Below, piece after piece: positions 1 to 26,838 of a DNA stretch of 38,222 bases (positions are counted from its first letter, which is position 1; each line of letters begins with the position of its first letter). The notes under the pieces were generated by a model. That model saw only the letters and a list, made by a program, of their open reading frames with translations. It was not told the DNA's origin and did no database searches. The stretch is taken from positions 1-38,222 of IMG/VR virus record IMGVR_UViG_3300047510_001854. One strand, given 5' to 3'. The position numbers and the translations under genes were made by a program. Source of the stretch: a virus.

Positions 1-2887
1 TAATAGCTGTTTCAAAAATACCGCCTCCAAGCGAAGAAAACCCAGACACCGCTCCTTTGGAAGCAAGAAAAGCCTTTCTGACATCTGCGTCAGAGATCTG
101 AATGCCGGTAGCTGGACCCCCTAAAGACTTTGAATACTCTCCCGCATATTCATAAGAATATTTTTTAGCAATATCTAATCCAAATGCCTGCACATCAGCT
201 TCAATATTAGTTAGATCGCCGCTCTTTTTTAAGCCCTCTGCTTTAAAGGCTTCTTGATTCAATCCGTATGTATGATATTTTACATAATCAACACCCAGTT
301 TTTTCCCTTTATCTTTAGTTTGAAATCCAAAACTTAAAGGCTTATCCAAATAAGCTTCCATTATTCGCTCATTTTTTTTATCTGGCACAAGCATTGCAGA
401 GCGACCTCTAGCATCTGCAATTGTTATTGAATCTCTTTGTTCTGCTTGAGCTTCTGAAGCTTGAGATTGCGCTTTTTGAGCAAAATTTGGAATATAACCA
501 GTTGCGGCATTTTTTACAATTCCAAAATTTTTAGCTTTTGATTTTACCTTGTCGATAAAATCAAATTGATTTAGCGGCGCGTATTTTGTCCCCGCGATCT
601 GCTTCTCTGATCTCAAATCTCCTTCTCCAACACCCTTTTCTTCTCTATTGATTCTTCTGGCAATAATATCCATATTGCCAGCATAAAGATATGAGACTTT
701 TCCTCCGCTTAAGTTTACTGCGCTGATAATCGATTCAAGATTAGCTGAAATTCCTCCATCTTTCGTTCTAGCTCCACCAGAAAGAATATCAATTTCTGTT
801 GCTTTATCAGCATCTTCTGGTTTTGTAATAAAGGTTCCGCCTGCTGCGGCAAAAGTTGTTTTGCCTGTGCCCGCTGGGCCTAAAATTAAATTCTTTTTAA
901 CCTTAGATGCTAAAATTTTCTTGAGCAGAGCATTCTTGTCTGCTGGCAATCTATCTGAATCGTAAATATATTTACCGTCCGTGAAATTTGGAATATAGCC
1001 GTTGGCCGCATTTATCTTTTTAGCGTTATCTGGCATTCCATACTTGCGAACCATATCTTTGTTGAAGATGGCGGTTCCATCGCCTCCGTTATAATTAGGA
1101 ACAACGTATTCGCTACTATTCGCATACATTGTGCCCTTCTTACCGCCACCAAAAGAGAAGTTTGGAATCTTAACTACTTTCGCATTCTTATCTGCGCCGC
1201 CAACTCCGCGCTTTACGTCAGCAGCTTCTTGTGCTGGGAGATAACCTTCTGCTGCTCTACCAGCTTTCTTTTGAACTGATCCACTAGTTGCCGAAAGACC
1301 AGCTTGCACCAAACCAGGAGCAACAGCGCCCGCAATCGACTGAACTTGCTGAAGCGCGGCAATTTGGCGATTATAAAGATTTAAAAGATATTCTTCTTGT
1401 TTTGTTCTATCTCCGCTCAAAGCGAGAATCGCCGCCATTACATCTCTGTCTCTAATCAAAGTATTTACTACAGCCTGTTCAAGAGCTTGTCTTTCCTTGA
1501 CCTGTTGATTGATTCCGAGAATTGTTTTCAGCGACTCAACACCGAATTGAGCAATATCCTTTGTCAGCTTAATGAAAATTGCGCCCAAAATTGGTAGACC
1601 TATCTTGAATAATACACCGCTAATTCCAGAAATTAAGCCCTTAGCAATATCACCGCCAATACTTTCTGAATCAATAAAGCTATTAATTCCAGAAATAACA
1701 TCATTAAAAAATTCAAGCAGTGATTGAAGATTCGCCGTTACACCAATTTTACCAATTGAATTAGCTAGTTCAGCAACCGAAACAACAGTTTGTTTAATTG
1801 TGGCATCAAGAGTCTTATTAAGCTCGACTTGTCTTGTATAAGCCTCATTATTTGCATTAGCTGATATTCCAGCAATCTCTTGGAACTTGCTTGAGCTAGA
1901 ACTTAAGTCGTCGAGCAAGGAGTTTAGAGAATTGATGTTGTATTTACTAGCTATAGCCTCAAGAACTTCAATCTTTTGAACTTCGCTAAGGCTGCTTAAT
2001 TTGCCCGCAAGCTGAGTCAAAATATCAACAACTGGACGAAGATTACCAGATGCATCTCTTGAAAAAATACCTATCTCCTGAAGAGCATTGATTGTCTCTT
2101 TAGACCTAATTCTAGTAAAAATTGTCTTAAAAGCATTACCAATAACCGCACCACCACGGGCAGTCTTTTCTTGAACAACAGTAACTATTGCGTTCAATTC
2201 ATCAAGAGAGACGCCAACTTCTTGTGCGATTGAACCCGCTCTAGAAAGACCTTTAGCAAGATCTTCTGAAGAAACTGCAAATCTTGTGTCTACGGCAACT
2301 AATTTATTTAATATATCCGCAGTAGTAGCACCACTTGAAGAAAATGAATTTACAGCAGCAGTTAGAACGTCAACAGCATCTGCCGCGCTTAAAGATGTGA
2401 ATCTTGTTAAAGTAAGGGCGTCTTTTGTTCTTTTTAAAGTTTCTTCCGTAGATAAACCTTGTCTAGAGAACTCAAGCGCTGCTTCGCTAGCAGTCTGGAA
2501 AGACTGGGCTGTTTCTCTAGCTACTGCGAAAAGACCTTTTGAAAAGCCGCTAAGTTCTTCATTAGTCTTGCCAAAGATAACGCCAATACTAGTCAGATTC
2601 TTCTGAACTTCTATTGTAGTTGCTACTAAGCTGGCAAGGGCGTTTTGAACACCATTAATAATACCTACGGATGCGCCGAATGCGATAACACGGGCGTTTG
2701 ACGCTGCAATTGACTTTTCGAATTCTGTCGCTAGCCCAGTTATTCTGCCTAGAGGCTGTGAAAGGTTTTTGAATGACTTAGCATCAACATCAATTGGAAT
2801 GCTAATACTTCCAACTTTCTTGGCTGCGCCTTGGATAGATTGCTCTAATCCAGTTTGCGTGACTGGGACTGTGATTCCTTTTGCCAT
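1..2887 (-). CDS. Tail tape measure protein with embedded P-loop domain (C-terminus beyond the left edge)
   Basis: The frame is open from the ATG at 2887 to the window edge, giving 962 codons and no stop; an AAAGG Shine-Dalgarno sits just upstream. Residues about 40-340 look like a tape measure N-terminal domain: long amphipathic helices, a GVIFG..NEEL segment and an ARGGAVIGNAFKTIFTRI segment. A hydrophobic stretch lies near residues 425-440 (GVLFKIGLPILGAIFIKL). From residue 548 the protein becomes modular: GYLP (548-551), IPNF (574-577), GYIPNF (ending 635) and GYIPNF (ending 802) separate small domains. The 636-798 segment has a clear Walker A, GPAGTGKTT (670-678), followed by a basic IIARRINREE stretch. 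Tape measures set tail length and are ejected into the host, so these domains may be ejected cargo. The tape measure call is firm; the cargo role is inference. Confidence 0.85.
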   Translation of the reverse strand, partial: MAKGITVPVTQTGLEQSIQGAAKKVGSISIPIDVDAKSFKNLSQPLGRITGLATEFEKSIAASNARVIAFGASVGIINGVQNALASLVATTIEVQKNLTSIGVIFGKTNEELSGFSKGLFAVARETAQSFQTASEAALEFSRQGLSTEETLKRTKDALTLTRFTSLSAADAVDVLTAAVNSFSSSGATTADILNKLVAVDTRFAVSSEDLAKGLSRAGSIAQEVGVSLDELNAIVTVVQEKTARGGAVIGNAFKTIFTRIRSKETINALQEIGIFSRDASGNLRPVVDILTQLAGKLSSLSEVQKIEVLEAIASKYNINSLNSLLDDLSSSSSKFQEIAGISANANNEAYTRQVELNKTLDATIKQTVVSVAELANSIGKIGVTANLQSLLEFFNDVISGINSFIDSESIGGDIAKGLISGISGVLFKIGLPILGAIFIKLTKDIAQFGVESLKTILGINQQVKERQALEQAVVNTLIRDRDVMAAILALSGDRTKQEEYLLNLYNRQIAALQQVQSIAGAVAPGLVQAGLSATSGSVQKKAGRAAEGYLPAQEAADVKRGVGGADKNAKVVKIPNFSFGGGKKGTMYANSSEYVVPNYNGGDGTAIFNKDMVRKYGMPDNAKKINAANGYIPNFTDGKYIYDSDRLPADKNALLKKILASKVKKNLILGPAGTGKTTFAAAGGTFITKPEDADKATEIDILSGGARTKDGGISANLESIISAVNLSGGKVSYLYAGNMDIIARRINREEKGVGEGDLRSEKQIAGTKYAPLNQFDFIDKVKSKAKNFGIVKNAATGYIPNFAQKAQSQASEAQAEQRDSITIADARGRSAMLVPDKKNERIMEAYLDKPLSFGFQTKDKGKKLGVDYVKYHTYGLNQEAFKAEGLKKSGDLTNIEADVQAFGLDIAKKYSYEYAGEYSKSLGGPATGIQISDADVRKAFLASKGAVSGFSSLGGGIFETAI

Positions 2888-2919: not shown

Positions 2920-3912
2920 CTACATCTCTCCATGTAATTTCATAAGGTCTTCCATGTTCATGCTTTTCTTCTCTTTCATCGCATTATTTAATGCTTTTGT
3001 TTGAGTATCTTTTGGAAGTTCATCCTTTGAAACGCCAAAAACCATCTCGCCGCTAGCATTTGGAATTCTCTTTTTAGCTTTTGATTCGAATTTTTCTTTT
3101 GCCTTTGTTTTGTCAACGTAAGCAAATAAAGCTTCGGGATCTTTCTTTATCGATTCTGGGATATTGTCATTTTGCTCAAATATATTTTTAAATACTTTTC
3201 CATAAATCATCAATCGGGCCTGACAATCAGAAAGTGCAATCATTGGCTTGCCCCATAAGTCGTTTGGACTCTCTAAAGCCAAAAAATAAGGATAAAAGAA
3301 ATCTGATAGCGCAATTTTTTGTATATTTAATTCAGAAAACTGGAGAGAATATTCATTATAAAAAATAATATAATCGTATAAGTCTTCATAAGTAAGATCC
3401 TCAAACTCTTCTAGATTAAAAACTCTTTTGCTTAACGCTTTATCTAAGAATAAAGTTTCGTATAATACGTAATCATTAGATCTATTTGAGGCGTAGCTTT
3501 CTGCCGTTTTTCCCAAAACTTCTTTTCTTTGATCGGTCTTTTTTGCTAGCTTTTCACGCTGCTCGATCTCCTGATCTTCTATCGCTTGAATCTCTAGTTT
3601 CTTGAATAAGTTTTTTTTTGTCAAAGCTAGTCGAGATAAAAAGTCTTTTGTTTTTTCAATTTCCATCTCGTCATTTTCTGTCCAATCGCCATTGTTTTTA
3701 GCCTTTTTTAAAGCCTCCTCCTCTGAAAGAATACCTCTTTTTAGAGCATAATTATAGTAATGCTGATATTTATAATCGAAAAAAGCTCTCTCGTCAAGGC
3801 CAATATGCTTGACGAAAAAGCTTTTTCCTTTAAACCTTCTTTCGGAAAATCCTTTAGTTATTTCGTAAAACCGAAGAGAAAGATCATTAGCTATCAATGG
3901 TTCCTTGTTCAA
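2920..3912 (-). CDS. Putative tail assembly chaperone, second (T-like) part
   Basis: A 330-aa charged, mostly helical protein lies immediately upstream of the tape measure gene, where the G/GT tail assembly chaperones of many long-tailed phages sit. It has a Lys/Glu-rich helix around residues 80-135 and aromatic segments at 165-225. No sequence family was recognised. The only near-N-terminal starts in this frame are TTG codons (3912 and 3897); the first in-frame ATG is around residue 82. The frame overlaps the end of the upstream ORF by 26 bases and is closed above by a TAA at 3922-3924. It is therefore made either from a TTG start or by a +1/-2 frameshift from the upstream ORF. The chaperone assignment rests on position and on this overlap, not on homology. 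Confidence 0.5.
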   Translation of the reverse strand: MNKEPLIANDLSLRFYEITKGFSERRFKGKSFFVKHIGLDERAFFDYKYQHYYNYALKRGILSEEEALKKAKNNGDWTENDEMEIEKTKDFLSRLALTKKNLFKKLEIQAIEDQEIEQREKLAKKTDQRKEVLGKTAESYASNRSNDYVLYETLFLDKALSKRVFNLEEFEDLTYEDLYDYIIFYNEYSLQFSELNIQKIALSDFFYPYFLALESPNDLWGKPMIALSDCQARLMIYGKVFKNIFEQNDNIPESIKKDPEALFAYVDKTKAKEKFESKAKKRIPNASGEMVFGVSKDELPKDTQTKALNNAMKEKKSMNMEDLMKLHGEM

Positions 3913-4627
3913 TGTCGGAATTTAGTTTCTCAAAATCTTCTCTCTTTGCGTTCTTACTAAAGTACCAGAATGCTGCGAATGTTGCCAGCTTCTTATAAGC
4001 TTTTGTATAGAGAGGATCGTCTTCATCGTCCATCTTATGAAGAATTTCGATCTTATCTTCGATAGTCTCTCCGGGGAACATTGGCTCAATCTTGCCGTCT
4101 GGCAGCTTTTGCTTATGCGCCATATTCAAGCAGAACCAGCGAATAACATTATTTTGAGCAATGCTGTCGGCAGTATTATTGAAAAGGTTATTGTAGGCCG
4201 ATTCTAACTCAGACATTCTCTTCTTGGCTTCAATAATAGAAGAGATAACGCTCTCTTCTTCGGCCTTATCACGATCTGTCTTTAACGTCAATTGCTGATA
4301 AGCTTCTTGCTGGGTGATAATAAAAGAATAAAGTTTGCCAAGCTCTACTCTATCAGCCTCAAGAATAAAGCCGCCAGAATCGGAGTACTTCTTGAGCAAC
4401 ATTCCTTTTGTAAGGATGCCTTTCTTGATGCAGTTCGACATCTCAATACTGAACTGAAGATCTGCATCTTCAATGTTTCTGCGGGATGGATTCTTGATGA
4501 TGATCTTATAAGGAACTTCTTGAGTCTCCTTCGAAGAAACGGTCACTGTCTTGCCGTTCTCTTCTTTTGTTTCCGTCTTTTCTACCTCTTGGCTCAGAGT
4601 AACATTAAAACTAAATAGTTCTTTCAT
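3887..4627 (-). CDS. Putative tail assembly chaperone, first (G-like) part
   Basis: A 246-aa protein starts at an ATG that overlaps the stop of the upstream 98-aa gene as ATGA, suggesting translational coupling. The N-terminus is beta-like with charged repeats (VEKTETKEENGKTVTV, then VPYKIIIKNPSRRN), followed by a helical region with a Glu/Lys-rich segment at about 120-150. The C-terminal third contains NVIRWFCLNMAHKQ and a Phe/Trp-rich FAAFWYFSKNAKRE. I do not recognise a named family. Its position two genes above the tape measure, and its out-of-frame overlap with the following ORF, match the G part of a G/GT tail chaperone pair. It could alternatively be an independent minor tail protein. 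Confidence 0.5.
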   Translation of the reverse strand: MKELFSFNVTLSQEVEKTETKEENGKTVTVSSKETQEVPYKIIIKNPSRRNIEDADLQFSIEMSNCIKKGILTKGMLLKKYSDSGGFILEADRVELGKLYSFIITQQEAYQQLTLKTDRDKAEEESVISSIIEAKKRMSELESAYNNLFNNTADSIAQNNVIRWFCLNMAHKQKLPDGKIEPMFPGETIEDKIEILHKMDDEDDPLYTKAYKKLATFAAFWYFSKNAKREDFEKLNSDIEQGTIDS

Positions 4628-8124: not shown

Positions 8125-8664
8125 TTAGTAATAGAAGTCTTCTTTGGGTACTTCTTTTTTCTTTTTTAGAGCGGCGATTCCTTGCCCCTCTGTTAACACT
8201 TCAATCATATCGTAATACTTTAGCGCCATTTGATAATCAGAGCGGTTAAAGTCATGAATAAAAACCACTACATTTTCATCAATAATATCCCAAAGATATT
8301 TGGCGCAATACTTTCTTGCTCTGCCATCAATCAAAGCCTTGGTGAACTTTAGGTTCTTGGTTGCTGGTAGATGCACGTAGTCCTTGAATTGCTCGTATCT
8401 GCAAGGCTTTGGGTCTGGAGAATGCGCCGCTTGATAGAGTAACTCAATATTCTGGATGTCATAAGCATTGATTAGTTTATTTAGGCTATTTACCCAATCA
8501 ATGTCATGCTCAATAGAAATTACTTTTTTTACAATTCCAGAAAAATAAATAGTGCTATTGCCACTACCAAACTCAAGCAAAGTGTCATTTTTATTTAGGA
8601 ACTTTTCAATGAATTTATACTCATGCTCATGCATGAGCGGGCGGAAAGAACTGAATTTATTCAT
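8125..8664 (-). CDS. Class I SAM-dependent methyltransferase-like protein
   Basis: A 179-aa protein with Rossmann methyltransferase features. Motif I is LLEFGSGNS (29-37), the SAM-binding acidic residue follows a strand in VISIEHD (48-54), and later strands are KALIDGRARKY and VVVFIHDF. It is shorter than most stand-alone methyltransferases but retains the core. Its ATG overlaps the stop of the glycosyltransferase gene by four bases, so the two are probably made together and act on the same substrate, perhaps a sugar on a virion protein or a host surface glycan. The acceptor is unknown. No DNA-methyltransferase catalytic motif (DPPY or PC) is visible. Confidence 0.7.
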   Translation of the reverse strand: MNKFSSFRPLMHEHEYKFIEKFLNKNDTLLEFGSGNSTIYFSGIVKKVISIEHDIDWVNSLNKLINAYDIQNIELLYQAAHSPDPKPCRYEQFKDYVHLPATKNLKFTKALIDGRARKYCAKYLWDIIDENVVVFIHDFNRSDYQMALKYYDMIEVLTEGQGIAALKKKKEVPKEDFYY

Positions 8665-10259
8665 CGCTTGTTATCGTAAATGTCCATTACTTCCTTAACG
8701 ACAGTATCGACCTCTGGGAGATACTCAAGCACTGTTTTCCCTTTTGGAATCAAGTCGATAGTGTCATGCTTGAACTCTGTATGGCGAATTTCAAGGTCGT
8801 CTAGGAGAAGGTTCTTACGTAGAGCCTTGGTCTTATAAGCTTGAGTTCCATTGCGGAATGGCAGGATATGGTCTTCGTGCTTACAAGTTGGGAATGTGAC
8901 GATCCAGTTATCGAACGCGCCCGCGATATGCAGGGGCGAGGAATCGTTAGTGACCAAGCATCTTGATAGCGAAATAAGGGCAAAAAGCTGACCAAGAGTT
9001 GTGAGGTCTCTCAGATCATAGCCGCCTTGTGGAATTTGTACAGGGAGATAACCTTGCTTCTCATCAATAGTCTTACCAATGAGAACAACAGTCAGCTTCT
9101 CTGAAAGCTTATTCACGATCTGCTGCCACCATTCAATTGGCAGGGTCTTTGAAGGCCACCACTTGCCAGCATGAACTACAACAACAGGCTTCTTAGGATC
9201 TTTATCCTTGAACAAATCAATAACATAAGAAACATCCTCGGCGTCCAATTTTAATTGAATTGTTTTGTCGTTGTTTGGGATTGTTCGCTTAATCATGGAC
9301 ATTGAAGCGAAATCGGTAGGATGGAAAAGAACGTGAGACATCTTATGCTCTGATTGCTCATCATCAGGGCAAGTATGCATTGTAATTAAAGCGTCTTTGA
9401 TCCCCTTCCATTGATCATAGCTTACTACTGGACAACTAAGATGCTCAAATAGTCGCGGGAAATGCGACACTACAGTAATGTTAGCATCAGGATACATCTT
9501 TTGAGTGTATCGGATAGCGGGCTCTGAGCAAAGCTGGTCGCCCATTCCAGCAGTAACAGAAATCAAGATATTACGCTTATATTTATATCCTTCTTGCTTG
9601 TCTTTTTCCCATTGGTCTATATCCTTAAGCATAACGTCCATTTGAATATCTTTTGGAGCGCCAGCATAGTGGACAATATAAGAATTTAGGCGAGAAATGC
9701 CACAGAACTTATCAAGAATATCCATACGATTAAAGTCGTAATGCAAGTCATGCATCTCGACCTTATCATTTAGGATTCGGAGGTTAATGTAGGGCTGATC
9801 AGTCTCTACAAAGTCAACGCCCTTTGGGAGTCTGAAAATTTGCTTATGAACCCGCGAAATAACCATCACGCCAGAGTTGTAAAACTTGCCGCCCCACTTC
9901 TTTAGCGGCTCTTTGTAATACTCTGAAGCTTGCTCCAGATATTCAAATCGCGGCGAGTATCGCCCTTCGTTGAACATGCCCAATTTATTTTCGGGCACAA
10001 TTTCAAAAAGATTTGGGCAATCATCTCTGATTAAAATATCAACATCAAGATAAATGATTCTCTTGTATTGATTTAGGAGTTCCGCAATCAGGAACTTATT
10101 CCATTTTTGCGTAATATAAAACTTATTGAACTCTGTAACGTTTAAGAAATCGGCGCCGATTTTTTCGGCGTATTTCTTGATCGAGGGCAAAGTAATCTTT
10201 GCGACTTCGTTATAATAATCCCCAATTGAGATGGTTAAAACTAGATTCTCTTTTTTCAT
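8661..10259 (-). CDS. Two-domain glycosyltransferase (GT8-like plus GT9-like)
   Basis: A 532-aa protein with two parts. Residues 1-225 resemble GT8-type or nucleotide-diphospho-sugar transferases: FLIAELLNQYKRIIYLDVD contains the metal-binding DVD (72-74), followed by the NSGVMVISR motif. Residues about 230-530 resemble GT9/heptosyltransferase-like GT-B enzymes: ISVTAGMGDQLCSEPAIRY at the start, VVVHAGKWWPSKTLP in the middle, and the donor-site-like SRCLVTNDSSPLHIAGAF near the end. Two catalytic domains in one chain suggest stepwise addition of two sugars. Likely targets are a phage structural protein or host envelope glycan. Domain calls are by motif recognition; the acceptor is unknown. Upstream is only a 50-base AT-rich gap. 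Confidence 0.75.
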   Translation of the reverse strand: MKKENLVLTISIGDYYNEVAKITLPSIKKYAEKIGADFLNVTEFNKFYITQKWNKFLIAELLNQYKRIIYLDVDILIRDDCPNLFEIVPENKLGMFNEGRYSPRFEYLEQASEYYKEPLKKWGGKFYNSGVMVISRVHKQIFRLPKGVDFVETDQPYINLRILNDKVEMHDLHYDFNRMDILDKFCGISRLNSYIVHYAGAPKDIQMDVMLKDIDQWEKDKQEGYKYKRNILISVTAGMGDQLCSEPAIRYTQKMYPDANITVVSHFPRLFEHLSCPVVSYDQWKGIKDALITMHTCPDDEQSEHKMSHVLFHPTDFASMSMIKRTIPNNDKTIQLKLDAEDVSYVIDLFKDKDPKKPVVVVHAGKWWPSKTLPIEWWQQIVNKLSEKLTVVLIGKTIDEKQGYLPVQIPQGGYDLRDLTTLGQLFALISLSRCLVTNDSSPLHIAGAFDNWIVTFPTCKHEDHILPFRNGTQAYKTKALRKNLLLDDLEIRHTEFKHDTIDLIPKGKTVLEYLPEVDTVVKEVMDIYDNKR

Positions 10260-10309: not shown

Positions 10310-13300
10310 TTAAATAACGCATATTTGAATTGGAGTTCTCACATTAAGCTCACTTTTTTCTCCTTGACCCAAACCAACAGTTTCGCCCCAATGCCATATT
10401 TTTCCATTAAAATCAACCGCAGCCCATCCGTTAATATCAGAAATATTTTGTAAAATCATTTTTGGAGTTTCAAGTGTTGTGGTTCCTTCAGCTCTATAGA
10501 GTAAACCCCATACCCAAACATTATTATTTTTGTCTAACGCGATTCCTTCATAAAGAGAAGAAGTTATTTTGCAAAATGTTTTTGTTTGTCCTTTTATAGC
10601 AACCGGAGTAGTAATATTTCGACGATCACGAGCAAAGTTGGAAAAAATATTTCCCCATGCCCAAGTCACATTATTGTTGTCAATCGCCAAAATAATTTGA
10701 CTTTTAGCCATTATTTGACAAAATGTTTTATTCCCATAAATACTAACTGGTGTATTTCTACTAATTGTAGTATTATCGCCAAGTTGTCCAGATTCATTAT
10801 TGCCCCATGCCCAAAGTTTACCGTTTTTGTCGATAGCTGCGGCAAAATCATCTCCAACACTTATTTGGCAAAATGTTTTTACTTGCCCTGTTACACTAAC
10901 AGGAGTACGTTTTGATATATTTTCACCATTACCAAGTTGGCCGTAATAGCCTTCCCCCCAACTCCACAAACGACCATTTTTATCAATAGCTAATGAATTT
11001 GAATTACGAGCAGCTATCTTACAAAATGTTTTTGCTTGTCCCGCTACGCTAACAGGAGTACGTTTTAAAATACCTGTGTTGTCGCCAAGTTGACTATAAT
11101 AATTATTACCCCAACTCCATAAACGACCATTTTTATCAATAGTTAAATAGTGCGCTGTTCCAGCGCAAATTTTACAAAAAGTTTTAGTTGCGCCTCCAAG
11201 AGCGACTGGCGTTCGTCTTGAAATAGTAGTGTTATCTCCTAATCCTGCATTAGTATTGAATCCCCAAACCCAAACTTTGCCATTTTTATCTATAGCGCCA
11301 GCAGACGTTGTTCCAGCCGTTATTTCACAAAATGTTTTATTTCCATAAATAGCAAATGGCGTAGCTCTGCTAATTGTAGTATTATCGCCAATAGAGCCAT
11401 ATGCGTTACTTCCCCAAGCCCAGCCTTTGCCATTTTTATCGATAGCTAAACCAAAACTATTTACAGCTCCATAATTTCCTCCTGCTATTTTACAAAAAGT
11501 TTTACTTAATCCAGCTAAACTTATTGGCGGATACTGAATAGAGTTATAGCCATTAATTCCCAATGCTCCATAACTGTCTTGTCCCCAAGAAAATATTCCA
11601 CCATTAGAATTTAAACCATAAAATCCTTGATAGATTCCTTCTATTTTGCAAAAATTATTACTTGAATCAATAATAATAGGAGTGCTTTTTATAATCGGGT
11701 CATTTTGAGCAAGCTGACCTGAATTTCTTCCCCAAGCCCAAATTTGACCATTTTTATCTAAACCTAATCCACCCGCCGCTATAGGGCAAATTTCACAAAA
11801 CGTTTTATTTCCGCAAATAGCAACTGGCGTACCTCTAAAAATTGTAGAATTGTTTCCAAGTTGATTAATGTTGCCATTTCCCCAAGCCCAGCCTTTACCG
11901 TTTTTATCAATGGCAAAAACATAAATTGCACCAGCTCCAGCAGCGCAAATTTTGCAAAATGTTTTATTTCCATAAAGTGCGACTGGTGTTAGTTTTGATG
12001 TAGTAGTTTGATCACCCATACTACCACCACCGGCTCCCCAAACCCAAGTTTTCCCATTTTTATCAATTGCTGCGGAAAACTGCTCTCCTCCGGTTATGTG
12101 GCAAAATGTTTTATTTCCATAAATAGCAAATGGCGTACATCTATCAATTGTAGAATTATTTCCAAGACCGCCATATGCGTTACTTCCCCAAGCCCAGCCT
12201 TTGCCATTTTTGTCTATAGCAAAAGACGATGAGTATGTAGAGGGAAATATTTTGCAAAATGTTTTAACTGCACCAGCAACACTAACTGGTGTAAATCTAG
12301 AAATAGTTGTATTATCACCAAGTGTCCCCGCGGCGTTTCTCCCCCAGCCCCAAACTCTACCATTTTTATCTATAGCTAAAGAGTAACTCCCTACACTACC
12401 GTATCTCTGAAACACTTGACAAAATGTTTTGTTTCCATAAACATTGACTGGACTTTTCGTATAGGAGTAATATTCTACACCTAAATAAAGTTTTGAAAAT
12501 CCCCAACCCCATAAACGGCCATTTTTGTCAACTAAAAAAGTCTGATTTCCTCCAGTAGCTATATCACAAAATGTTTTATTTCCATAAATTGAAACGGGAG
12601 TTAATCGAATAGACGTAGTGCTTCCATCTCCTAAATAACCGCCTGCATTCCCCCAAGACCAAACTTTACCGTTTTTATCAATTGCGGAGACATAAGCTAC
12701 TCTGCCGTTTCCGTTAAGTTTACAAAAAGTTTTAGTTGCGCCTCCAAGAGCGACTGGCGTTCGTTTTGAAATAGTAGTGTTATCTCCGAGTTCGCCGTTA
12801 GTGTTGTTTCCCCAACACCAAATTTTGCCATTTTTATCAAGAGCTTGAGTAGCACCAAAAGACACATTTATTTGACAAAATGTTTTAACTGCACCAGCAA
12901 CACTAACTGGTGTAGCTCTGCTAGTTGTTGTGTTATCTCCAATGATGCCGTTGTTGTTGAAGCCCCATCCCCAAGCTCTGCCATTTTTATCAATAAGCAT
13001 TTGTGTGGTAGTATTAGTTGCGATTTTGCAAAATGTTTTTGTTGCTCCTGAAACAGAAACAGGACTGCTTCTACCTGAAAAAGCTCCCCAACCCCAAGCT
13101 TTACCATTTTTATCTAAAGCGTAAACATGACACCGACCAGGAGCTATCTCACAAAATGTTTTTGTTGAAAAAAAATCTACCCAAACTGGAATAAAATATG
13201 AAACGTATCCTGCCTCAGCATAGGTAATTTCCCCAAAATTACTACGGCCAGCTCCCCATATAATACCATTTTCATCAATAGCAAATGATGCACCTGAATT

Positions 13301-13555
13301 GGCGCCTCTGGTATCTTGATTCATGCCTATCTTTATTTTGCAAAATTTTTTATTTTGCAAATACATTATTTTATTCGGTACGGCGACTGCACCTCCAAGT
13401 TCTGGAACACCTACTTGCCCAGCTCCACTATTTCCCCAGCTCCATAAATTTCCATTTTTATCAATAGCCGAAGCGGTATATGTTCCATGAGCAATCAATG
13501 CAACATTTCTTTTTGGTCTGTTAGCTCTAACTGGACCTTTTAATAAAAGAGCCAT
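10310..13555 (-). CDS. RCC1-type beta-propeller repeat protein, putative adhesin
   Basis: A 1081-aa protein almost entirely made of about 50-residue repeats with the core IDKNGK.W.WG, then LGDNTT.S..TPV, then KTFCKI. Counting the blade motif gives 21 repeats, which would make three seven-bladed propellers. These are RCC1 (regulator of chromosome condensation) or ATS1-type repeats; in bacteria and phages such domains are generally taken as binding surfaces. Repeats near the ends (for example YRAEG and NIFSNFARD) are degenerate. A Cys recurs in each KTFC motif, unusual for an extracellular surface. No signal peptide or membrane segment is present. It ends the fibre array, so a receptor-binding or virion decoration role is likely. 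The fold is confident, the function inferred. Confidence 0.85.
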   Translation of the reverse strand: MALLLKGPVRANRPKRNVALIAHGTYTASAIDKNGNLWSWGNSGAGQVGVPELGGAVAVPNKIMYLQNKKFCKIKIGMNQDTRGANSGASFAIDENGIIWGAGRSNFGEITYAEAGYVSYFIPVWVDFFSTKTFCEIAPGRCHVYALDKNGKAWGWGAFSGRSSPVSVSGATKTFCKIATNTTTQMLIDKNGRAWGWGFNNNGIIGDNTTTSRATPVSVAGAVKTFCQINVSFGATQALDKNGKIWCWGNNTNGELGDNTTISKRTPVALGGATKTFCKLNGNGRVAYVSAIDKNGKVWSWGNAGGYLGDGSTTSIRLTPVSIYGNKTFCDIATGGNQTFLVDKNGRLWGWGFSKLYLGVEYYSYTKSPVNVYGNKTFCQVFQRYGSVGSYSLAIDKNGRVWGWGRNAAGTLGDNTTISRFTPVSVAGAVKTFCKIFPSTYSSSFAIDKNGKGWAWGSNAYGGLGNNSTIDRCTPFAIYGNKTFCHITGGEQFSAAIDKNGKTWVWGAGGGSMGDQTTTSKLTPVALYGNKTFCKICAAGAGAIYVFAIDKNGKGWAWGNGNINQLGNNSTIFRGTPVAICGNKTFCEICPIAAGGLGLDKNGQIWAWGRNSGQLAQNDPIIKSTPIIIDSSNNFCKIEGIYQGFYGLNSNGGIFSWGQDSYGALGINGYNSIQYPPISLAGLSKTFCKIAGGNYGAVNSFGLAIDKNGKGWAWGSNAYGSIGDNTTISRATPFAIYGNKTFCEITAGTTSAGAIDKNGKVWVWGFNTNAGLGDNTTISRRTPVALGGATKTFCKICAGTAHYLTIDKNGRLWSWGNNYYSQLGDNTGILKRTPVSVAGQAKTFCKIAARNSNSLAIDKNGRLWSWGEGYYGQLGNGENISKRTPVSVTGQVKTFCQISVGDDFAAAIDKNGKLWAWGNNESGQLGDNTTISRNTPVSIYGNKTFCQIMAKSQIILAIDNNNVTWAWGNIFSNFARDRRNITTPVAIKGQTKTFCKITSSLYEGIALDKNNNVWVWGLLYRAEGTTTLETPKMILQNISDINGWAAVDFNGKIWHWGETVGLGQGEKSELNVRTPIQICVI

Positions 13556-14917: not shown

Positions 14918-15619
14918 TTATAGACGAAAACGGCCTTTTATAGCGTTGTAGTTTTGACGGATTTCAGTAATTGATAATGCGCGGTTATATATGCTAGCAT
15001 TAAATATTCTTCCATTTGAAAAACCAGTATAAACTGTTGGCATTGCTCCTATATGAACTTGATTACTTGAAATATCAAAAGTAGAGGTAAAGGTTGTATT
15101 GGATGCCACTAAATTTCCATTTATGTAAAGTTTTAAATCGTCTGTTATTGTACTAGCAACTGCAACAACATATGTAAAAGTATTTCTATAATCTCCGCCC
15201 GAATTAACATTTTTTTGGCTACGATCAACTCCAGTAATTGTAAGACCTAATGACCCACCTACACCTATTCCCATAGAATATTGCTCATAACTGCCAGCAT
15301 AATTATTTTGTTTAAAAATTATTGGACCATAATTAGAACTATGCCCTGATAAATTTACAAATGCACATAAGCTAATAGCGCCAGTTGGATTTAAACTAGA
15401 AGAATTAGGCACAGCCACATAATCATTTGATGCGTCAAAAAATATTCCTCCACCATTGGCGCTACTAAAAATTGGCCCATTAGTTAAAGTCCCATTATTC
15501 CCATTTCCGCTCAAATCAACCCACGAAGTTCCACTGCCCGGATAACTTTTAGTGTTCGCCGCATCTAAGCATAAAACTAAACCATCTTGGACTAAATCTG
15601 GACCCCCGGAGACACTCAT
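14918..15619 (-). CDS. LamG/concanavalin-like domain protein, paralogue 1
   Basis: A 233-aa single-domain protein with a LamG-like jelly-roll signature: GLVLCLDAANTKSYPGSGT, then WVDLSGNGNNGTL, then DYVAVPNSSSL, and the C-terminal INGNLVAS..F.....IGAMP and IYNRALS. It ends in YNAIKGRFRL, shared by the neighbouring paralogues. Such domains bind carbohydrates, so a receptor-binding or fibre-tip role is plausible. Its ATG overlaps the stop of the upstream paralogue as ATGA, indicating tandem duplication and coupled translation. The fold call is confident; the ligand is unknown. Confidence 0.75.
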   Translation of the reverse strand: MSVSGGPDLVQDGLVLCLDAANTKSYPGSGTSWVDLSGNGNNGTLTNGPIFSSANGGGIFFDASNDYVAVPNSSSLNPTGAISLCAFVNLSGHSSNYGPIIFKQNNYAGSYEQYSMGIGVGGSLGLTITGVDRSQKNVNSGGDYRNTFTYVVAVASTITDDLKLYINGNLVASNTTFTSTFDISSNQVHIGAMPTVYTGFSNGRIFNASIYNRALSITEIRQNYNAIKGRFRL

Positions 15620-16308
15620 AGTTTGAACCTTCCTTTGGTGGCGTTGTAGTTTTGACGAAGCTCTGTTTCAGACAATGCCTTAGTATATATTTGCAAATTT
15701 GCAATACGGCCTTTAAATGGTAAAAATCCATTCATACGGACACCTATATTAAAAACTCCAAATGTTATAGATGAATGTCCAACAGTGTTAGTAGCTTTGG
15801 ACATGCCACTTCTTTGGAATAAATATGCTGTAGCTGGCGTATTTCCGGCCCCAACTACAACGGATACAGCAACCATACACCAATCTAAATTTGGAGTCGC
15901 TAACCCGCTATTCCAATTATAGGTAGAAGCATTATTATTCCAATTATATGTAATTTTATCAGCATCATAAAATTGTAACGCAAATGCCGGATTTGTTCCA
16001 GCTGAACTAGGCGATTCAAATATAGTATCTTGATACACCTGATTACCGTCTCTGTATAGCCAACATACTATTGTTGAACTTCCCGCTACCGCAGAAATGC
16101 TACCCGTTGCATAATCATTGGTACCATCAAATATTAAACTTCCACTATTTTCGCTACTAAAAGTGGGTCCATTTAACAAAGTTGCATTGCCTCCATTTCT
16201 GCTTATATCAGTCCAAGTTGTCCCGCTACCAGAATAACTTTTTGGATTTCCGGCATCTAAACAAAACAAAAGATTATCAGTAACTATTTTTGGGCCGTTA
16301 CTATACAT
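15616..16308 (-). CDS. LamG/concanavalin-like domain protein, paralogue 2
   Basis: A 230-aa protein from the ATG at 16308, chosen because the frame continues upstream only through the end of the previous gene and because MYSNGPKIVTDNLLFCLDAG matches the start of paralogue 3. The signature NGPKIVTDNLLFCLDAGNPK, then WTDISRNGGNATL, then FDGTNDYATG, and the ending YNATKGRFKL place it in the same family as its neighbours. The middle, from VVCWLYR to AALQF-type strands, diverges strongly, consistent with ligand diversification. It follows the 85-aa gene by two bases and overlaps paralogue 1 by four. Confidence 0.75.
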   Translation of the reverse strand: MYSNGPKIVTDNLLFCLDAGNPKSYSGSGTTWTDISRNGGNATLLNGPTFSSENSGSLIFDGTNDYATGSISAVAGSSTIVCWLYRDGNQVYQDTIFESPSSAGTNPAFALQFYDADKITYNWNNNASTYNWNSGLATPNLDWCMVAVSVVVGAGNTPATAYLFQRSGMSKATNTVGHSSITFGVFNIGVRMNGFLPFKGRIANLQIYTKALSETELRQNYNATKGRFKL

Positions 16309-16309
16309 T

Positions 16310-16567
16310 TTAAATAATTCCAGTTGCTGTCCACTCAACACCAGTCAAGATATTAAGGATCTCGTCATAAGTGTACGGGCCTTCTGCGCCAGAAATTGTG
16401 GCGACAAAAGCGGGTTCCGCGCCCTCCCATTTCACAAATGTTTTTGTCTCATCGATTGATTTTCTAACAGTTTCGGCGCTGGTTTCTAAAACAAGATTAA
16501 AGTCAACCTTGGTTAATTCAGAAACTGGCAGGATTAAGTATTCGCGGTTTTCGAAATGATGACTCAT
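16310..16567 (-). CDS. Small accessory protein in the LamG cluster
   Basis: An 85-aa protein starting MSHHFENREYLILPVSE and containing TVRKSIDETKTFVKWEG, ISGAEGPYTYDE and a short acidic ending. I recall similar short proteins in fibre regions of aquatic phages, with no established function. The gene sits between two LamG paralogues: its ATG overlaps the stop of paralogue 3 (ATGA) and its stop is two bases from paralogue 2. The placement suggests a chaperone or partner for the adhesins, which is inference. Confidence 0.65.
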   Translation of the reverse strand: MSHHFENREYLILPVSELTKVDFNLVLETSAETVRKSIDETKTFVKWEGAEPAFVATISGAEGPYTYDEILNILTGVEWTATGII

Positions 16568-17247
16568 AGTTTGTATCTTCCTTTTAAAGCGTTGTAGTTT
16601 TGAAGTATTTGGGTTGGCGAAAGAGCAACATTGTATAAGCTAATATGACTGAACGAAGCGCTCATTGGATAATTATTAGATGGCGTATTACCAAAAGTTA
16701 AGCTAGATGATGTGTTGGTTATATTACCAGGAGATGCATTTTGACTGGCTAAAACTGCGCCATTTTTATAAATATACAAAAAGGTTCCAGATTTTACGAA
16801 AGTTAAATTCATAAAAGATCCACTTACATTTGCGCCAGCAGTTCCAACAAAATAGCCTATCCAATCATTAACAAAAAAATAAAAAAGACCATTCTCAAAA
16901 AAAGCGCCAAATCCATCATTCCAATTATCGTCTGTTTGTTTCCCAAAAAGACACATATAATCTGTAGTGCCAATTATTTTTACTAAAAAATTAATAGTAA
17001 TATCTGATGTGAAACTAGATATCGTCGAATTATTTGATATAAATATATTATCGTCTGTGCCATCAGTAGTTATAACCCCTTTATTTTCCGTTGAATAAGT
17101 TGGGCCGTTATAAAGAACGGCGTCATTTCCGTTTCTTCTCAAATCTGTCCAAACTGTTCCAGAACCAGGATAGCTTTTTGGATTCGCAGCATCCAAGCAC
17201 AAAACAAGATTATCAGTAACTATTCTTGGCCCGTAATAATTCGGCAT
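16564..17247 (-). CDS. LamG/concanavalin-like domain protein, paralogue 3
   Basis: A 227-aa protein: MPNYYGPRIVTDNLVLCLDA, then NPKSYPGSGTVWTDLRRNGND, TEGTDDNIF-type turns, and the C-terminal ISLYNVALSPTQ with the ending YNALKGRYKL. It is the best match of the three to the consensus GPRIVTDNLVLCLDAANP. It follows the collagen-like fibre gene by two bases. A carbohydrate-binding role is inferred from the fold. Confidence 0.75.
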   Translation of the reverse strand: MPNYYGPRIVTDNLVLCLDAANPKSYPGSGTVWTDLRRNGNDAVLYNGPTYSTENKGVITTDGTDDNIFISNNSTISSFTSDITINFLVKIIGTTDYMCLFGKQTDDNWNDGFGAFFENGLFYFFVNDWIGYFVGTAGANVSGSFMNLTFVKSGTFLYIYKNGAVLASQNASPGNITNTSSSLTFGNTPSNNYPMSASFSHISLYNVALSPTQILQNYNALKGRYKL

Positions 17248-22125: not shown

Positions 22126-25100
22126 TTAAGAAAATACTTGTGCTGCTAAAACATAATCTGAAGAAACTGAACTTAAGTTTACCCCGCCCAATTCTGATAT
22201 AAAATCAACTTTCCAACCTATCGTTGCATCAACATAAGTAAGACCTAGTGTTGCAGAATAGTTGCAAACTAAATTTTCCGCTAAACTACTTATATTACTG
22301 CCATTTCGGGCAATTGTCAAATTATTTGCGCCCCATGTTCCTTCAGGATCATTTATCTCAATGTAGTTTGCTGCTGATGGAGAGCTTGGTAATGTAATCG
22401 TGAAAGAGCCAGCAGAAGTGTCTGCTAGTATTCTGTCTGAGTTTACGGCAGTGTAATTGGATGTTTTTACTGTCCAAACTGGCATTAAGCCGCTGGTTCC
22501 GCTGCTACCAGTTGTGCCGCTAGTGCCATTTACGCCGCTGGTTCCGTTAATGCCACTAGTACCAGTTGTGCCGCTAGTACCGTTAGCGCCTGCTGCGCCG
22601 TTTGTGCCGCTACTACCGCTAGTGCCAGTCGTACCGCTTGTGCCGTTAGCGCCATTCGCACCGCTAGTGCCACTGCTACCGCTAGTGCCAGTTGTACCGC
22701 TAGTACCGTTTAGGCCGCTTGTGCCGTTGGCGCCTGCTGCGCCGTTTGTGCCGCTACTACCGCTAGTGCCAGTTGTGCCGCTAGTACCGTTAGCGCCTGC
22801 TGCGCCGTTTGTGCCGCTACTACCGCTAGTGCCAGTCGTACCGCTTGTGCCGTTAGCGCCATTCGCACCGCTAGTGCCACTGCTACCGCTAGTGCCAGTT
22901 GTACCGCTAGTACCGTTTAGGCCGCTTGTGCCGTTGGCGCCTGCTGCGCCGTTTGTGCCGCTACTACCGCTAGTGCCAGTTGTGCCGCTAGTACCGTTAG
23001 CGCCTGCTGCGCCGTTTGTGCCGCTACTACCGCTAGTGCCAGTCGTACCGCTTGTGCCGTTAGCACCATTCGCACCGCTAGTGCCACTGCTACCGCTAGT
23101 GCCAGTTGTACCGCTAGTACCGTTTAGGCCGCTTGTGCCGTTGGCGCCTGCTGCGCCGTTTGTGCCGCTACTACCGCTAGTGCCAGTCGTACCGCTTGTG
23201 CCGTTAGCACCATTCGCACCGCTAGTGCCACTGCTGCCGCTAGTGCCAGTTGTGCCGCTGGTGCCGTTAATCCCGCTTGTACCTGACGAACCGCTAGTAC
23301 CTTCTGTGCCGCTAGTGCCTGAAGATCCACTTGCGCCACTACTTCCTGTCGCACCACTAGTGCCTGAAGATCCACTTGTTCCTTCTGTACCACTAGTACC
23401 GGAAGAGCCGCTCGCTCCGCTACTTCCTGTTGCGCCGCTTGTGCCTGAAGAGCCGCTAGTGCCTTCTGTTCCACTAGTGCCAGTTGTACCGCTTGTTCCT
23501 CCTGTGCCAGAAGAACCGCTAGTTCCATTAATTCCAGATGTTCCGCCAACAGCAACGTTCCAAGTGTTTCCGTCGCTTATTAATGTTACTGCCTCATATT
23601 GATCTAAAACATAAGTATCATTTCCATCAATTTGACCAAGAGAAGTCCCATCAATTGTTAATGCGCCAGAACCTTTATTCTTTACTGTGAACTCTCTGCC
23701 AAGATTTGAGGAGGCGCTGATTAAAGTGAAAGTGATTGGCGAGCTTGAATTTCCAACAATTACATTGTCATCAACAGTAATTTGGTAAGAAGATGTTTTG
23801 ACATCAACGTTTCTAACTAAGCCCTCGAAAGACAAAGTGTCGCCAACAGAAAACGCGCCAGAAACATAGCTTTGGCCCGTGCCGTTTAATCTGATAGTGT
23901 CAGTATTAAACCAAACGCCGCTACCAGAATGGTAAGAGATAATTTGGCCTTCTTGTTTATTGATGATTCTGACATCGTGAATTTCATTAAGCTCATAACC
24001 ATTTTGAACTTTAACAAGAATTTCGCCAGCAGTAACATGGCTTCTAACGCAATAGCCAACAAACACTCCGTGATCTGGAGCAATTGGTTTTCCAGTTTGA
24101 TACTCTCCAGAATTTACAGTTGAAAGCCAAAGGGCAGTTCCAGCAGGAATCAAAGATGTATCTAGACCTTTTAATACGCCTTCAAGAATAACATAGCCAT
24201 CTGCACCAGCAGCGATGCTTTCTGCTGTGTAGCCAAAAGTTTTTGAAGAGGCCATTTCATATCCAGCAAAAGCTTTTTCGACTGCAATTTTATTTCCTTG
24301 TGATCCACTTACGTAAACAACAGTGCCCTTTACCAGAGTTCCTGTTGTTGGGTTTGTTACATATTGATATAAATGCTGCCCAACATCTAAATCAACATTA
24401 CCGCCAAGTAAACCAAGAGAAAGAGTGCCTTTGCCCGCATTCCAATTTAATTCGCCAACTTCAACAACATCAGATACTCCAGTATTAAATAAAATTTCAT
24501 CTGTTTTTACAGAGCCTGATACTACAATATAATTTCCTGATTGATACGCGATGCTTTCGTCAATACCTCCATTGTCTGTATATTTTGGAATATAATTAGC
24601 TTCACCAGATACAGCTAATACATTTCCGCTTGTGCCGCTGGAGCCAGTTAAACCGCTGGAGCCGCTAGTGCCTTCGGTGCCGCTAGTGCCTGATGAACCG
24701 CTAGTACCTTCTGTGCCGCTGCTGCCTGACGAGCCGCTGGTGCCAGTTGTGCCGCTGGTGCCATTGATGCCGCTTGTACCAGATGAACCGCTAGTGCCTT
24801 CTGTACCGCTGGTGCCACTAGTACCTTCAGTACCGCTGCTGCCTGATGAACCACTAGTACCATCAATGCCGCTAGTGCCTTCTGTACCGCTGCTGCCTGA
24901 TGAACCGCTAGTGCCAGTTGTGCCACTAGTGCCAGTTGTGCCGCTTGTACCGCTAGTGCCTTCTGTGCCGCTTGTACCGCTAGTACCTTCTGTGCCGCTG
25001 CTACCTGACGAGCCGCTAGTACCTTCTGTACCACTGCTCCCTGACGAGCCGCTAGTGCCAGTTGTGCCACTGGTACCGTTGATGCCGCTAGTACCTGACG

Positions 25101-26838
25101 AACCGCTAGTGCCTTCTGTACCGCTGGTGCCGCTAGTGCCTTCTGTACCGCTGCTGCCTGACGAGCCGCTAGTGCCAGTTGTACCGCTAGTGCCATTAAT
25201 GCCGCTAGTGCCTGACGAACCGCTAGTGCCTTCTGTGCCGCTTGTACCACTTGTGCCCTCGGTGCCGCTTGTACCGCTTGTGCCTTCAGTGCCGCTTGTG
25301 CCGCTAGTGCCTTCTGTACCGCTTGTGCCGCTAGTGCCTTCGGTGCCGCTGCTACCTGACGAGCCGCTGGTGCCTTCTGTACCGCTGCTGCCTGATGAAC
25401 CGCTAGTGCCAGTTGTACCGCTAGTGCCATTAATGCCGCTAGTGCCTGACGAACCGCTAGTGCCTTCTGTGCCGCTTGTACCACTTGTTCCACTAGATCC
25501 GCTATCTCCTTTATCGCCAGTTCTAGCAAATGTTAAAATACAATCATCTCCATCAACGAATGGATTAGAAACCGAGCTATCTACAGGAGAAACAGTAATT
25601 TTAAAATACCCAGAAGCCTCCTCTGTAGCGCTAATTGTAAACAGAATAAAAACAGCAGTATCAAATAATTTGCTTACCTTTACGTGACCTTTTATTGTTG
25701 AGGTCGAGTCGTCAATTGTCCTCAAATAATTTTGTATATCTGACCCATTCAAATCAACGTCATCAAGGCTTATTCTTGTAGAAGAATTTTGAGTTGATTG
25801 ATTAAATATAAAATTCCCTGATCCGGGATCAGAGTCAGTTGTTACTGAACTAAAATTATATTTAAATGATGCGCCGCCAAAATTACCATCTTGACCAGAT
25901 GTGCCAGCGGTTCCAGAAGATCCGCTAGTACCGCTGCTGCCACTAGAACCACTAGTGCCTGACGAGCCACTAGTACCTTCTGTGCCGCTTGTGCCGCTAG
26001 TACCTTCTGTGCCGCTGCTACCTGAAGATCCGCTAGTGCCAGTTGTGCCACTGGTGCCATTAATGCCGCTAGTGCCGTTGATACCGCTAGTGCCTGATGA
26101 ACCGCTAGTACCTTCGGTGCCGCTTGTGCCGCTAGTGCCTTCTGTACCGCTGGTGCCGCTTGTGCCTTCTGTACCGCTGGTGCCGCTTGTGCCTTCTGTG
26201 CCGCTAGTGCCGCTAGTGCCTTCAGTGCCACTTGTGCCGCTAGTACCTTCGGTGCCGCTACTGCCTGACGAACCGCTAGTGCCAGTTGTGCCGCTAGTGC
26301 CGTTGATGCCGCTTGTGCCAGATGAACCGCTAGTGCCCTCTGTACCACTTGTGCCGCTGGTGCCTTCTGTACCGCTGGTGCCGCTTGTGCCTTCAGTTCC
26401 GCTTGTGCCGCTAGTACCCTCTGTACCGCTTGTGCCGCTAGTACCTTCGGTGCCGCTACTGCCTGACGAGCCACTAGTACCTTCGGTGCCGCTACTGCCT
26501 GACGAGCCGCTAGTGCCAGTTGTGCCGCTAGTGCCGTTGATGCCGCTTGTGCCAGATGAACCGCTAGTGCCCTCGGTGCCGCTTGTGCCGCTGCTACCTG
26601 ACGAACCACTAGTTCCCGTAGTACCACTAGTGCCACTAGTGCCTTCGGTGCCACTTGTACCACTGCTACCTGATGAACCGCTACTGCCACTTGTGCCGTC
26701 ATTACCGCTAGTGCCGTTACCAATTACTTGATCAACTTCAATAATTTCAGTAGGTGGGCAAACTCCGGTTGAAGTTTCTACAATTTCAACCGCACCACAA
26801 ACTCCTGAAACTATAACCTCTACAGTTATGTCTGGCAT
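22126..26838 (-). CDS. Giant collagen-like fibre protein
   Basis: A 1570-aa protein. A short N-terminus (MPDITVEVIVSGVCGAVEIV) precedes three long Gly-X-Y collagen-like blocks at about 26715-25890, 25505-24635 and 23545-22490. They are dominated by GTS, GSS, GTE, GTT and, in block 3, GAN/GAA, with no proline. Two folded domains interrupt the blocks: residues about 320-440 (ASFKYNFSSVTTDSDPG onward) and 740-1100 (GEANYIPKYTDNGG, YEMASSKTFGYTAESIAAG, VFVGYCVRSHVTAG, VGNSSSPITFTLISASSNLG). The C-terminal domain (WTVKTSNYTAVNSDRILADT) is shared with the gene at 19058-20467. Without proline, triple-helix formation would need other stabilisation, for example Thr-rich or glycosylated units. Fibre role is inferred. 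Confidence 0.85.
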   Translation of the reverse strand: MPDITVEVIVSGVCGAVEIVETSTGVCPPTEIIEVDQVIGNGTSGNDGTSGSSGSSGSSGTSGTEGTSGTSGTTGTSGSSGSSGTSGTEGTSGSSGTSGINGTSGTTGTSGSSGSSGTEGTSGSSGSSGTEGTSGTSGTEGTSGTSGTEGTSGTSGTEGTSGTSGTEGTSGSSGTSGINGTSGTTGTSGSSGSSGTEGTSGTSGTEGTSGTSGTEGTSGTSGTEGTSGTSGTEGTSGTSGTEGTSGSSGTSGINGTSGINGTSGTTGTSGSSGSSGTEGTSGTSGTEGTSGSSGTSGSSGSSGTSGSSGTAGTSGQDGNFGGASFKYNFSSVTTDSDPGSGNFIFNQSTQNSSTRISLDDVDLNGSDIQNYLRTIDDSTSTIKGHVKVSKLFDTAVFILFTISATEEASGYFKITVSPVDSSVSNPFVDGDDCILTFARTGDKGDSGSSGTSGTSGTEGTSGSSGTSGINGTSGTTGTSGSSGSSGTEGTSGSSGSSGTEGTSGTSGTEGTSGTSGTEGTSGTSGTEGTSGTSGTEGTSGSSGTSGINGTSGTTGTSGSSGSSGTEGTSGTSGTEGTSGSSGTSGINGTSGTTGTSGSSGSSGTEGTSGSSGSSGTEGTSGTSGTEGTSGTSGTTGTSGTTGTSGSSGSSGTEGTSGIDGTSGSSGSSGTEGTSGTSGTEGTSGSSGTSGINGTSGTTGTSGSSGSSGTEGTSGSSGTSGTEGTSGSSGLTGSSGTSGNVLAVSGEANYIPKYTDNGGIDESIAYQSGNYIVVSGSVKTDEILFNTGVSDVVEVGELNWNAGKGTLSLGLLGGNVDLDVGQHLYQYVTNPTTGTLVKGTVVYVSGSQGNKIAVEKAFAGYEMASSKTFGYTAESIAAGADGYVILEGVLKGLDTSLIPAGTALWLSTVNSGEYQTGKPIAPDHGVFVGYCVRSHVTAGEILVKVQNGYELNEIHDVRIINKQEGQIISYHSGSGVWFNTDTIRLNGTGQSYVSGAFSVGDTLSFEGLVRNVDVKTSSYQITVDDNVIVGNSSSPITFTLISASSNLGREFTVKNKGSGALTIDGTSLGQIDGNDTYVLDQYEAVTLISDGNTWNVAVGGTSGINGTSGSSGTGGTSGTTGTSGTEGTSGSSGTSGATGSSGASGSSGTSGTEGTSGSSGTSGATGSSGASGSSGTSGTEGTSGSSGTSGINGTSGTTGTSGSSGTSGANGANGTSGTTGTSGSSGTNGAAGANGTSGLNGTSGTTGTSGSSGTSGANGANGTSGTTGTSGSSGTNGAAGANGTSGTTGTSGSSGTNGAAGANGTSGLNGTSGTTGTSGSSGTSGANGANGTSGTTGTSGSSGTNGAAGANGTSGTTGTSGSSGTNGAAGANGTSGLNGTSGTTGTSGSSGTSGANGANGTSGTTGTSGSSGTNGAAGANGTSGTTGTSGINGTSGVNGTSGTTGSSGTSGLMPVWTVKTSNYTAVNSDRILADTSAGSFTITLPSSPSAANYIEINDPEGTWGANNLTIARNGSNISSLAENLVCNYSATLGLTYVDATIGWKVDFISELGGVNLSSVSSDYVLAAQVFS
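22561..23181 (-). repeat. Three tandem 207-bp repeats in the third collagen block
   Basis: Landmark sequences such as GCCATTCGCA recur at 22651, 22858 and (with one base change) 23065, each 207 bases apart. This corresponds to a 69-residue unit of Gly-X-Y triplets in the reading frame. A partial, diverged fourth copy continues downstream with a shorter spacing. Such identical long repeats point to recent expansion by recombination and make the region prone to assembly collapse. Confidence 0.85.

Follow-up and report, generated by a model that had tools for sequence, protein, structure and literature searches.

Linker-bounded, exchangeable modules in the tape measure protein of uncultured phages: a candidate carrier of injected enzyme-like domains

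Tape measure proteins and other injected carriers

Tape measure proteins (TMPs) with lytic domains are well known. Those of mycobacteriophage TM4 (cited in PMC13277306) and SPbeta (YomI) are members of the same superfamily as the protein described here and likewise embed an ejected enzyme domain, a cell-wall hydrolase. Polyvalent proteins (Iyer et al. 2017, PMC5512222) also carry several unrelated enzyme domains on one injected polypeptide, and the effectors of contractile injection systems (Sle1/Tme, PMC13277306) are TMP-like and delivered through a tail tube, as is proposed below. Here, we describe a TMP gene at one edge of a 38,222-base virus record (IMG/VR record IMGVR_UViG_3300047510_001854; this whole stretch is hereafter called the window) in which enzyme-like modules are strung between copies of a short peptide linker. 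We consider it fairly probable that this TMP doubles as an injected carrier of several swappable enzyme-like modules, and this carrier is best read as combining the idea of the lytic-domain TMP with that of the “polyvalent” injected protein.

Single polypeptides of this family hold several unrelated enzyme-like domains, namely a P-loop domain (predicted structure), a nuclease-like domain (motif) and, in relatives, a GNAT acetyltransferase (above the Pfam cut-off). The repertoire of polyvalent proteins overlaps with these modules (GNAT, ADP-ribosyltransferase, nuclease, peptidase and P-loop). Among their examples from phages, however, are portal/MuF fusions and further proteins packaged in the virion, whereas the carrier here is the tail TMP and its modules are bounded by linkers; the text of PMC5512222 mentions neither tape measure nor linkers. 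The enzymes of TM4 and YomI act in the envelope, whereas the modules here are several, exchangeable and resemble enzymes acting on nucleotides, nucleic acid or proteins. Sle1/Tme are bacterial and carry a C-terminal effector domain behind a coiled-coil N-terminus, with no internal linker-bounded array described. A polymorphic toxin with a single C-terminal toxin domain was ruled out, because the modules are internal and multiple.

No description of linker-bounded TMP arrays, and no publication combining “tape measure protein” with “IPNF”, was found in the literature covered, which left most subscription journals and preprints outside, and the novelty is therefore provisional. The chances are about even that these genes represent an undescribed delivery platform, that is, a recombinable effector array within the TMP of an uncultured phage lineage, in which a short peptide marks the cargo slots and anti-host or counter-defence enzymes are swapped.

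The tape measure gene, its linkers and its modules

By profile matching, the product of the window gene is a TP901-type TMP. Its 962 residues matched TIGR01760 (tape_meas_TP901; NCBIfam) with 129 bits against a cut-off of 28.8 and PhageMin_Tail (Pfam) with 107.8 bits against a cut-off of 33.2, which bears out the normal TMP N-terminal half described in a first-pass annotation made from the sequence alone. Because the gene runs off the window edge and its 3′ part is absent, everything past residue 962 was read from near-identical relatives, the complete TMPs of loci L002 and L003 (98% and 96% identical to the window protein over 962 residues, respectively). The features of the gene are as follows.

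2..2887, minus strand: TMP gene, 962 residues, 3′ part beyond the window (open reading frame and profile matches)
1169..2887, minus strand: TMP N-terminal half, residues 1-573, common to the family
1952..2521, minus strand: PhageMin_Tail domain, residues 123-312 (Pfam match)
1571..1627, minus strand: hydrophobic membrane-type segment, residues ~421-439, on the N side of the module block (located in near-identical L002, offset by one residue)
1235..1246, minus strand: GYLP, residues 548-551
1157..1168, minus strand: linker 1, IPNF, residues 574-577, start of the module block
1091..1102, minus strand: linker 2, VPNY, residues 596-599
983..1000, minus strand: linker 3, GYIPNF, residues 630-635
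500..982, minus strand: P-loop kinase-like module, residues 636-796 (alignment, predicted structure and fold matches)
854..880, minus strand: Walker A, GPAGTGKTT, residues 670-678 (K676 and S/T677 each in 26/26 sequences)
638..664, minus strand: IARRINREE, residues 742-750, with R745 and R748 invariant (26-sequence alignment)
482..499, minus strand: linker 4, GYIPNF, residues 797-802
2..481, minus strand: first 160 residues (803-962) of the nuclease-like module, complete (250 residues) in L002
11..28, minus strand: GGGIFE, residues 954-959, holding the conserved Glu of E..D..(D/E)xK; the window ends three residues later

Just upstream of the TMP gene (2920-4627, minus strand) are two open reading frames overlapping by approximately 25 bases; siphophages often carry a frameshifted tail-assembly chaperone pair in this position.

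The motif [IVLM]PN[FY] occurs four times in the 962 residues against an expectation of 0.016, and a chance origin was ruled out by 20,000 shuffles, none of which produced more than two copies. In 319 distinct linker contexts, the consensus was A-A-x-G-[FY]-[IV]-P-N-[FY]-A. Codon agreement between the linkers of one gene (0.481) was no higher than the background expected from the codon use of the gene (0.463), indicating that the linker is kept as a peptide and ruling out a DNA-level repeat as the cause of its conservation. Linker residues had a predicted local distance difference test (pLDDT) score of about 40 in the model of the P-loop module and so form no part of that domain. Inteins were also rejected on the basis of the junction residues, since the linker Asn precedes Phe/Tyr and then usually Ala rather than Cys, Ser or Thr.

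GYLP, IPNF, both GYIPNF copies, the Walker A and IARRINREE lie where the first-pass annotation had placed them. Of its proposal of at least three small linker-separated modules, the linkers stand, but VPNY at 596-599 had been overlooked, and the segments 578-599 (22 residues) and 600-635 (36 residues) are too short for domains and are found in most relatives. Thus, the modules proper start with 636-796, and the next one begins at residue 803. Its mention of similar I/V-P-N-F repeats in other phage tail proteins found no confirmation, as none of 50,697 isolate-phage records matched the P-loop module, the terminal module described below or the GNAT/HAD array; these records matched the generic N-terminal TMP domain only. 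A scan of viral contigs identified 80 related loci, most with TMP genes of 1,400-4,000 residues and 2-10 linkers. The form A-G-[FY]-[IV]-P-N-[FY]-A is borne by 112 non-redundant TMPs, with about 49 module families between the linkers. Among metagenome-assembled genomes, only two contained such a gene, probably on phage contigs.

Judging from its predicted structure, the module at 636-796 is P-loop kinase-like, although not a member of a named family. Alignment of 26 sequences revealed invariant D643 and D645 (DxD), P671, G673, G675 and K676 of the Walker A, S/T677, K709, R745, R748, R759 and N773, so that the Walker A called unmistakable in the first-pass annotation (within 636-798) is also conserved. 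The model was confident (pLDDT 87.2; predicted template modelling score 0.83), with a predicted P-loop fold and no disorder at residues 664-750, and its best Foldseek matches in the PDB were P-loop kinases (adenylate kinases, E = 3e-4; zeta toxin 6epi, probability 0.98; polynucleotide kinase 4gp6), in line with the nucleotide-binding or kinase-like module suggested in the first-pass annotation. The module shares the Walker A and conserved arginines after the P-loop with these kinases, its best fold matches, but differs from them in its invariant DxD before the P-loop and its low template modelling scores (TM-scores); there was no Pfam match within 636-796 at E up to 1, and no named kinase family passed its cut-off. 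The DxD sits on the strand preceding the P-loop (500-982, minus strand). As a guess, this strand could be a circularly permuted Walker B, and such a permutation would explain the poor sequential alignments of the model.

Among the matches listed in the profile scan of viral contigs, 38 of 41 were taken as genuine P-loop modules; all 38 had an intact Walker A, and 36 started at most six residues from a linker. The other three (L099 twice and L004 once) lacked a Walker A and were judged to be false coiled-coil matches. Whether the query included the linker or not, only loci of this TMP family appeared among the matches listed. The bacterial genomes searched contained no homologue of the module, standalone or cellular, and 395 genomes of one phylum yielded only partial, Walker-A-level matches.

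The further domain that had been anticipated after residue 803 is a nuclease-like module. In an alignment of 67 sequences with a mean column identity of only 14%, the pattern E..D..(D/E)xK was nonetheless kept (E 66/67, D 67/67, D/E 67/67, K 66/67) and, at the sequence level, is the PD-(D/E)XK active-site pattern. The predicted structure, again confident (pLDDT 87.3; predicted template modelling score 0.80), has an order of elements around the motif that is compatible with the restriction-endonuclease fold. This family (F0) is the commonest, occurring in 97/112 TMPs as an upper figure, since clustering merged P-loop modules into F0. Profile-profile comparison using hhalign linked F0 with families F5 (probability 93.9) and F40 (probability 83), both of which show the same E..D..(D/E)xK pattern by eye.

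The array in L002 and L003 consists of the P-loop module, the nuclease-like module, F6, F3 (HAD-type motifs), F4 or F7, F1 (77 residues) and a long C-terminal half, and the order past residue 962 in the phage of the window is presumed to be the same. F1 is a 77-residue terminal module (NPxGLxVxNxRDEP; L002:7959-8189 and relatives) found just before the C-terminal half in ~100/112 TMPs. Relatives carry up to about ten modules. A GNAT acetyltransferase exceeded the Pfam cut-off of 20.7 bits in L231 (33.1 bits), L232 (29.7 bits) and L234 (23.6 bits). Other modules were read by eye: a HAD-type module (DWDGT) with invariant D9, D11, T55, K106 and D119, HExxH (L231-L233), an ADP-ribosyltransferase-like motif (L121, L217-L219), a protein-kinase-like motif (L067, L068, L072, L108 and L023), a weak transglycosylase-like module (L074) and a second P-loop type (L231, L234 and L238). 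None of these readings by eye had Pfam support at its cut-offs, and searches of Pfam, PHROGs and PDB sequences gave nothing convincing for the HAD, ADP-ribosyltransferase, kinase and transglycosylase modules.

Modules vary strongly between related phages, while the Lys/Thr position of the Walker A is conserved, in line with the check on relatives suggested in the first-pass annotation. The TMP N-termini of L002 and L006 are 97% identical, and the P-loop module is missing in L006. Whole modules also distinguish L017 from L016 (N-termini 97% identical), L004 from L012 (99%) and L121 from L123 (86%); L016 and L017 have similar C regions, and their total lengths differ by ~340 residues of modules. 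Conversely, the P-loop modules of L110 and L027 are 92% identical to that of L194, although the N-terminal alignments of these TMPs with L194 reach only 37-39% identity; this N-terminal comparison may be imperfect and is given no weight here. The single linker of L006 begins like one L002 linker and finishes like the following one, a pattern that recombination at this site would leave. Across 84 complete TMPs, one hydrophobic 19-mer fell within the module block, compared with 85 on its N side and 61 on its C side; such a distribution agrees with a TMP that is inserted in the membrane and leaves its middle part exposed. The cargo spanned 311 to 1,492 residues, with no trade-off against the C region (r = 0.38).

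Proposed delivery of the modules and competing explanations

In the carrier that we favour, a central block of modules, each folding independently and connected to the next by the linker, would lie between the two TMP halves. The TMP would lie extended inside the tail tube in the virion and be ejected at infection, when its hydrophobic segments would enter the inner membrane. The module block would then be exposed to the host, where each module would refold and act on host nucleic acid, nucleotides or proteins, disabling defence or redirecting the cell. As spacers at the protein level or as docking peptides, the linkers would keep the modules independent of one another, and this independence could allow modules to be gained, lost and shuffled; the hinge role suggested in the first-pass annotation is another possible function of the linkers. 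We infer the injection of the modules into the host from TMP biology, and their delivery, refolding, compartment, enzymatic activity and targets are likewise proposals.

Several points weigh against this interpretation. The evidence for it comes from sequences and predicted structures, and the window's own TMP is incomplete, so that relatives alone represent the part past residue 962. The P-loop model aligned to known kinases with low TM-scores (0.29-0.49), the fold search with the nuclease-like module gave no significant match in PDB or BFVD, and the HAD, ADP-ribosyltransferase, kinase and peptidase readings were made by eye, with no Pfam support at the cut-offs. Furthermore, most enzyme domains known from TMPs are cell-wall hydrolases that work in the envelope.

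The alternative that survives best, although we regard it as unlikely, is that the linkers are protease sites, where cleavage in the virion or host would release the modules as separate enzymes, making the TMP a polyprotein. Much of the evidence for the carrier would suit this alternative too, the difference being the role of the linker. A linker conserved as protein at module boundaries and disordered in the P-loop model would suit cleavage, as would the HExxH module, and the TMPs of lambda (gpH) and T5 (pb2) undergo processing. However, no HExxH module was observed among the close relatives of the window, few of the TMPs read had one, and no processing enzyme came to light.

Far less probable is a cassette model in which the modules are selfish or exchanged passively, the nuclease-like module promoting its own spread (homing-like) and the others hitchhiking, none having a job in the host. 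The sharp gain and loss of modules at linkers, the L006 linker resembling a join of two L002 linkers and the presence of the nuclease-like motif in most arrays agree with such cassettes. Nevertheless, P-loop and GNAT modules that hitchhiked would not be expected to retain their active-site residues, the ratio of nonsynonymous to synonymous substitution rates (dN/dS) of the P-loop module is 0.06-0.25, the DNA of the linkers shows no conservation beyond codon usage, and the junctions lack intein-type residues. An equally improbable role within the virion, in tail assembly or DNA ejection (e.g., ATP-driven steps) rather than as host effectors, accords with modules of a predicted ATP-binding fold in a structural protein, but free ATP is not expected in the virion, the module set is highly variable, and the lack of the P-loop module in L006 shows that it is dispensable for assembly. 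Both explanations fit less well with the invariant active sites and the dispensable P-loop module.

If the carrier interpretation is correct, TMPs would be more than rulers and pore formers, forming a general cargo system that brings enzymes into the host as the DNA enters, the moment at which defences such as SNIPE act; SNIPE associates with the tape measure protein (PMC13190303). The modules would amount to a catalogue of early phage effectors, help to account for TMPs longer than 3,000 residues and point to a natural linker code with which enzymes could be loaded into phage tails. The passage of folded enzymes through the tail tube, and any contribution of the cargo to tail length, would also become testable.

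Other genes in the window

Among the tail genes, 10310-13555 (minus strand) encodes a 1,081-residue RCC1-type repeat protein (WD40_RLD, E = 4e-151; RCC1, 7e-88) that is likely a beta-propeller adhesin, and 8661-10259 (minus strand), which adjoins the tail genes, encodes a fusion of glycosyltransferase families 8 and 9. Three adjacent, paralogue-like LamG-like proteins are encoded at 14918-17247 (minus strand; 14918-15619, 15616-16341 and 16564-17247), with Laminin_G_3 confirmed for the first. A 1,570-residue protein (22126-26838, minus strand) contains long GTSGSSG-type collagen-like repeats and is mirrored by long mechanical antisense open reading frames. Next to the terminase gene, the product of 35429-36397 (minus strand) has weak ERCC4 and HNH-repeat matches below the cut-off and is perhaps a mobile nuclease. 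The product of 37441-38154 (minus strand) shows weak similarity, below the Pfam cut-off, to sigma-70 region 2 and has a Cys-rich insert.
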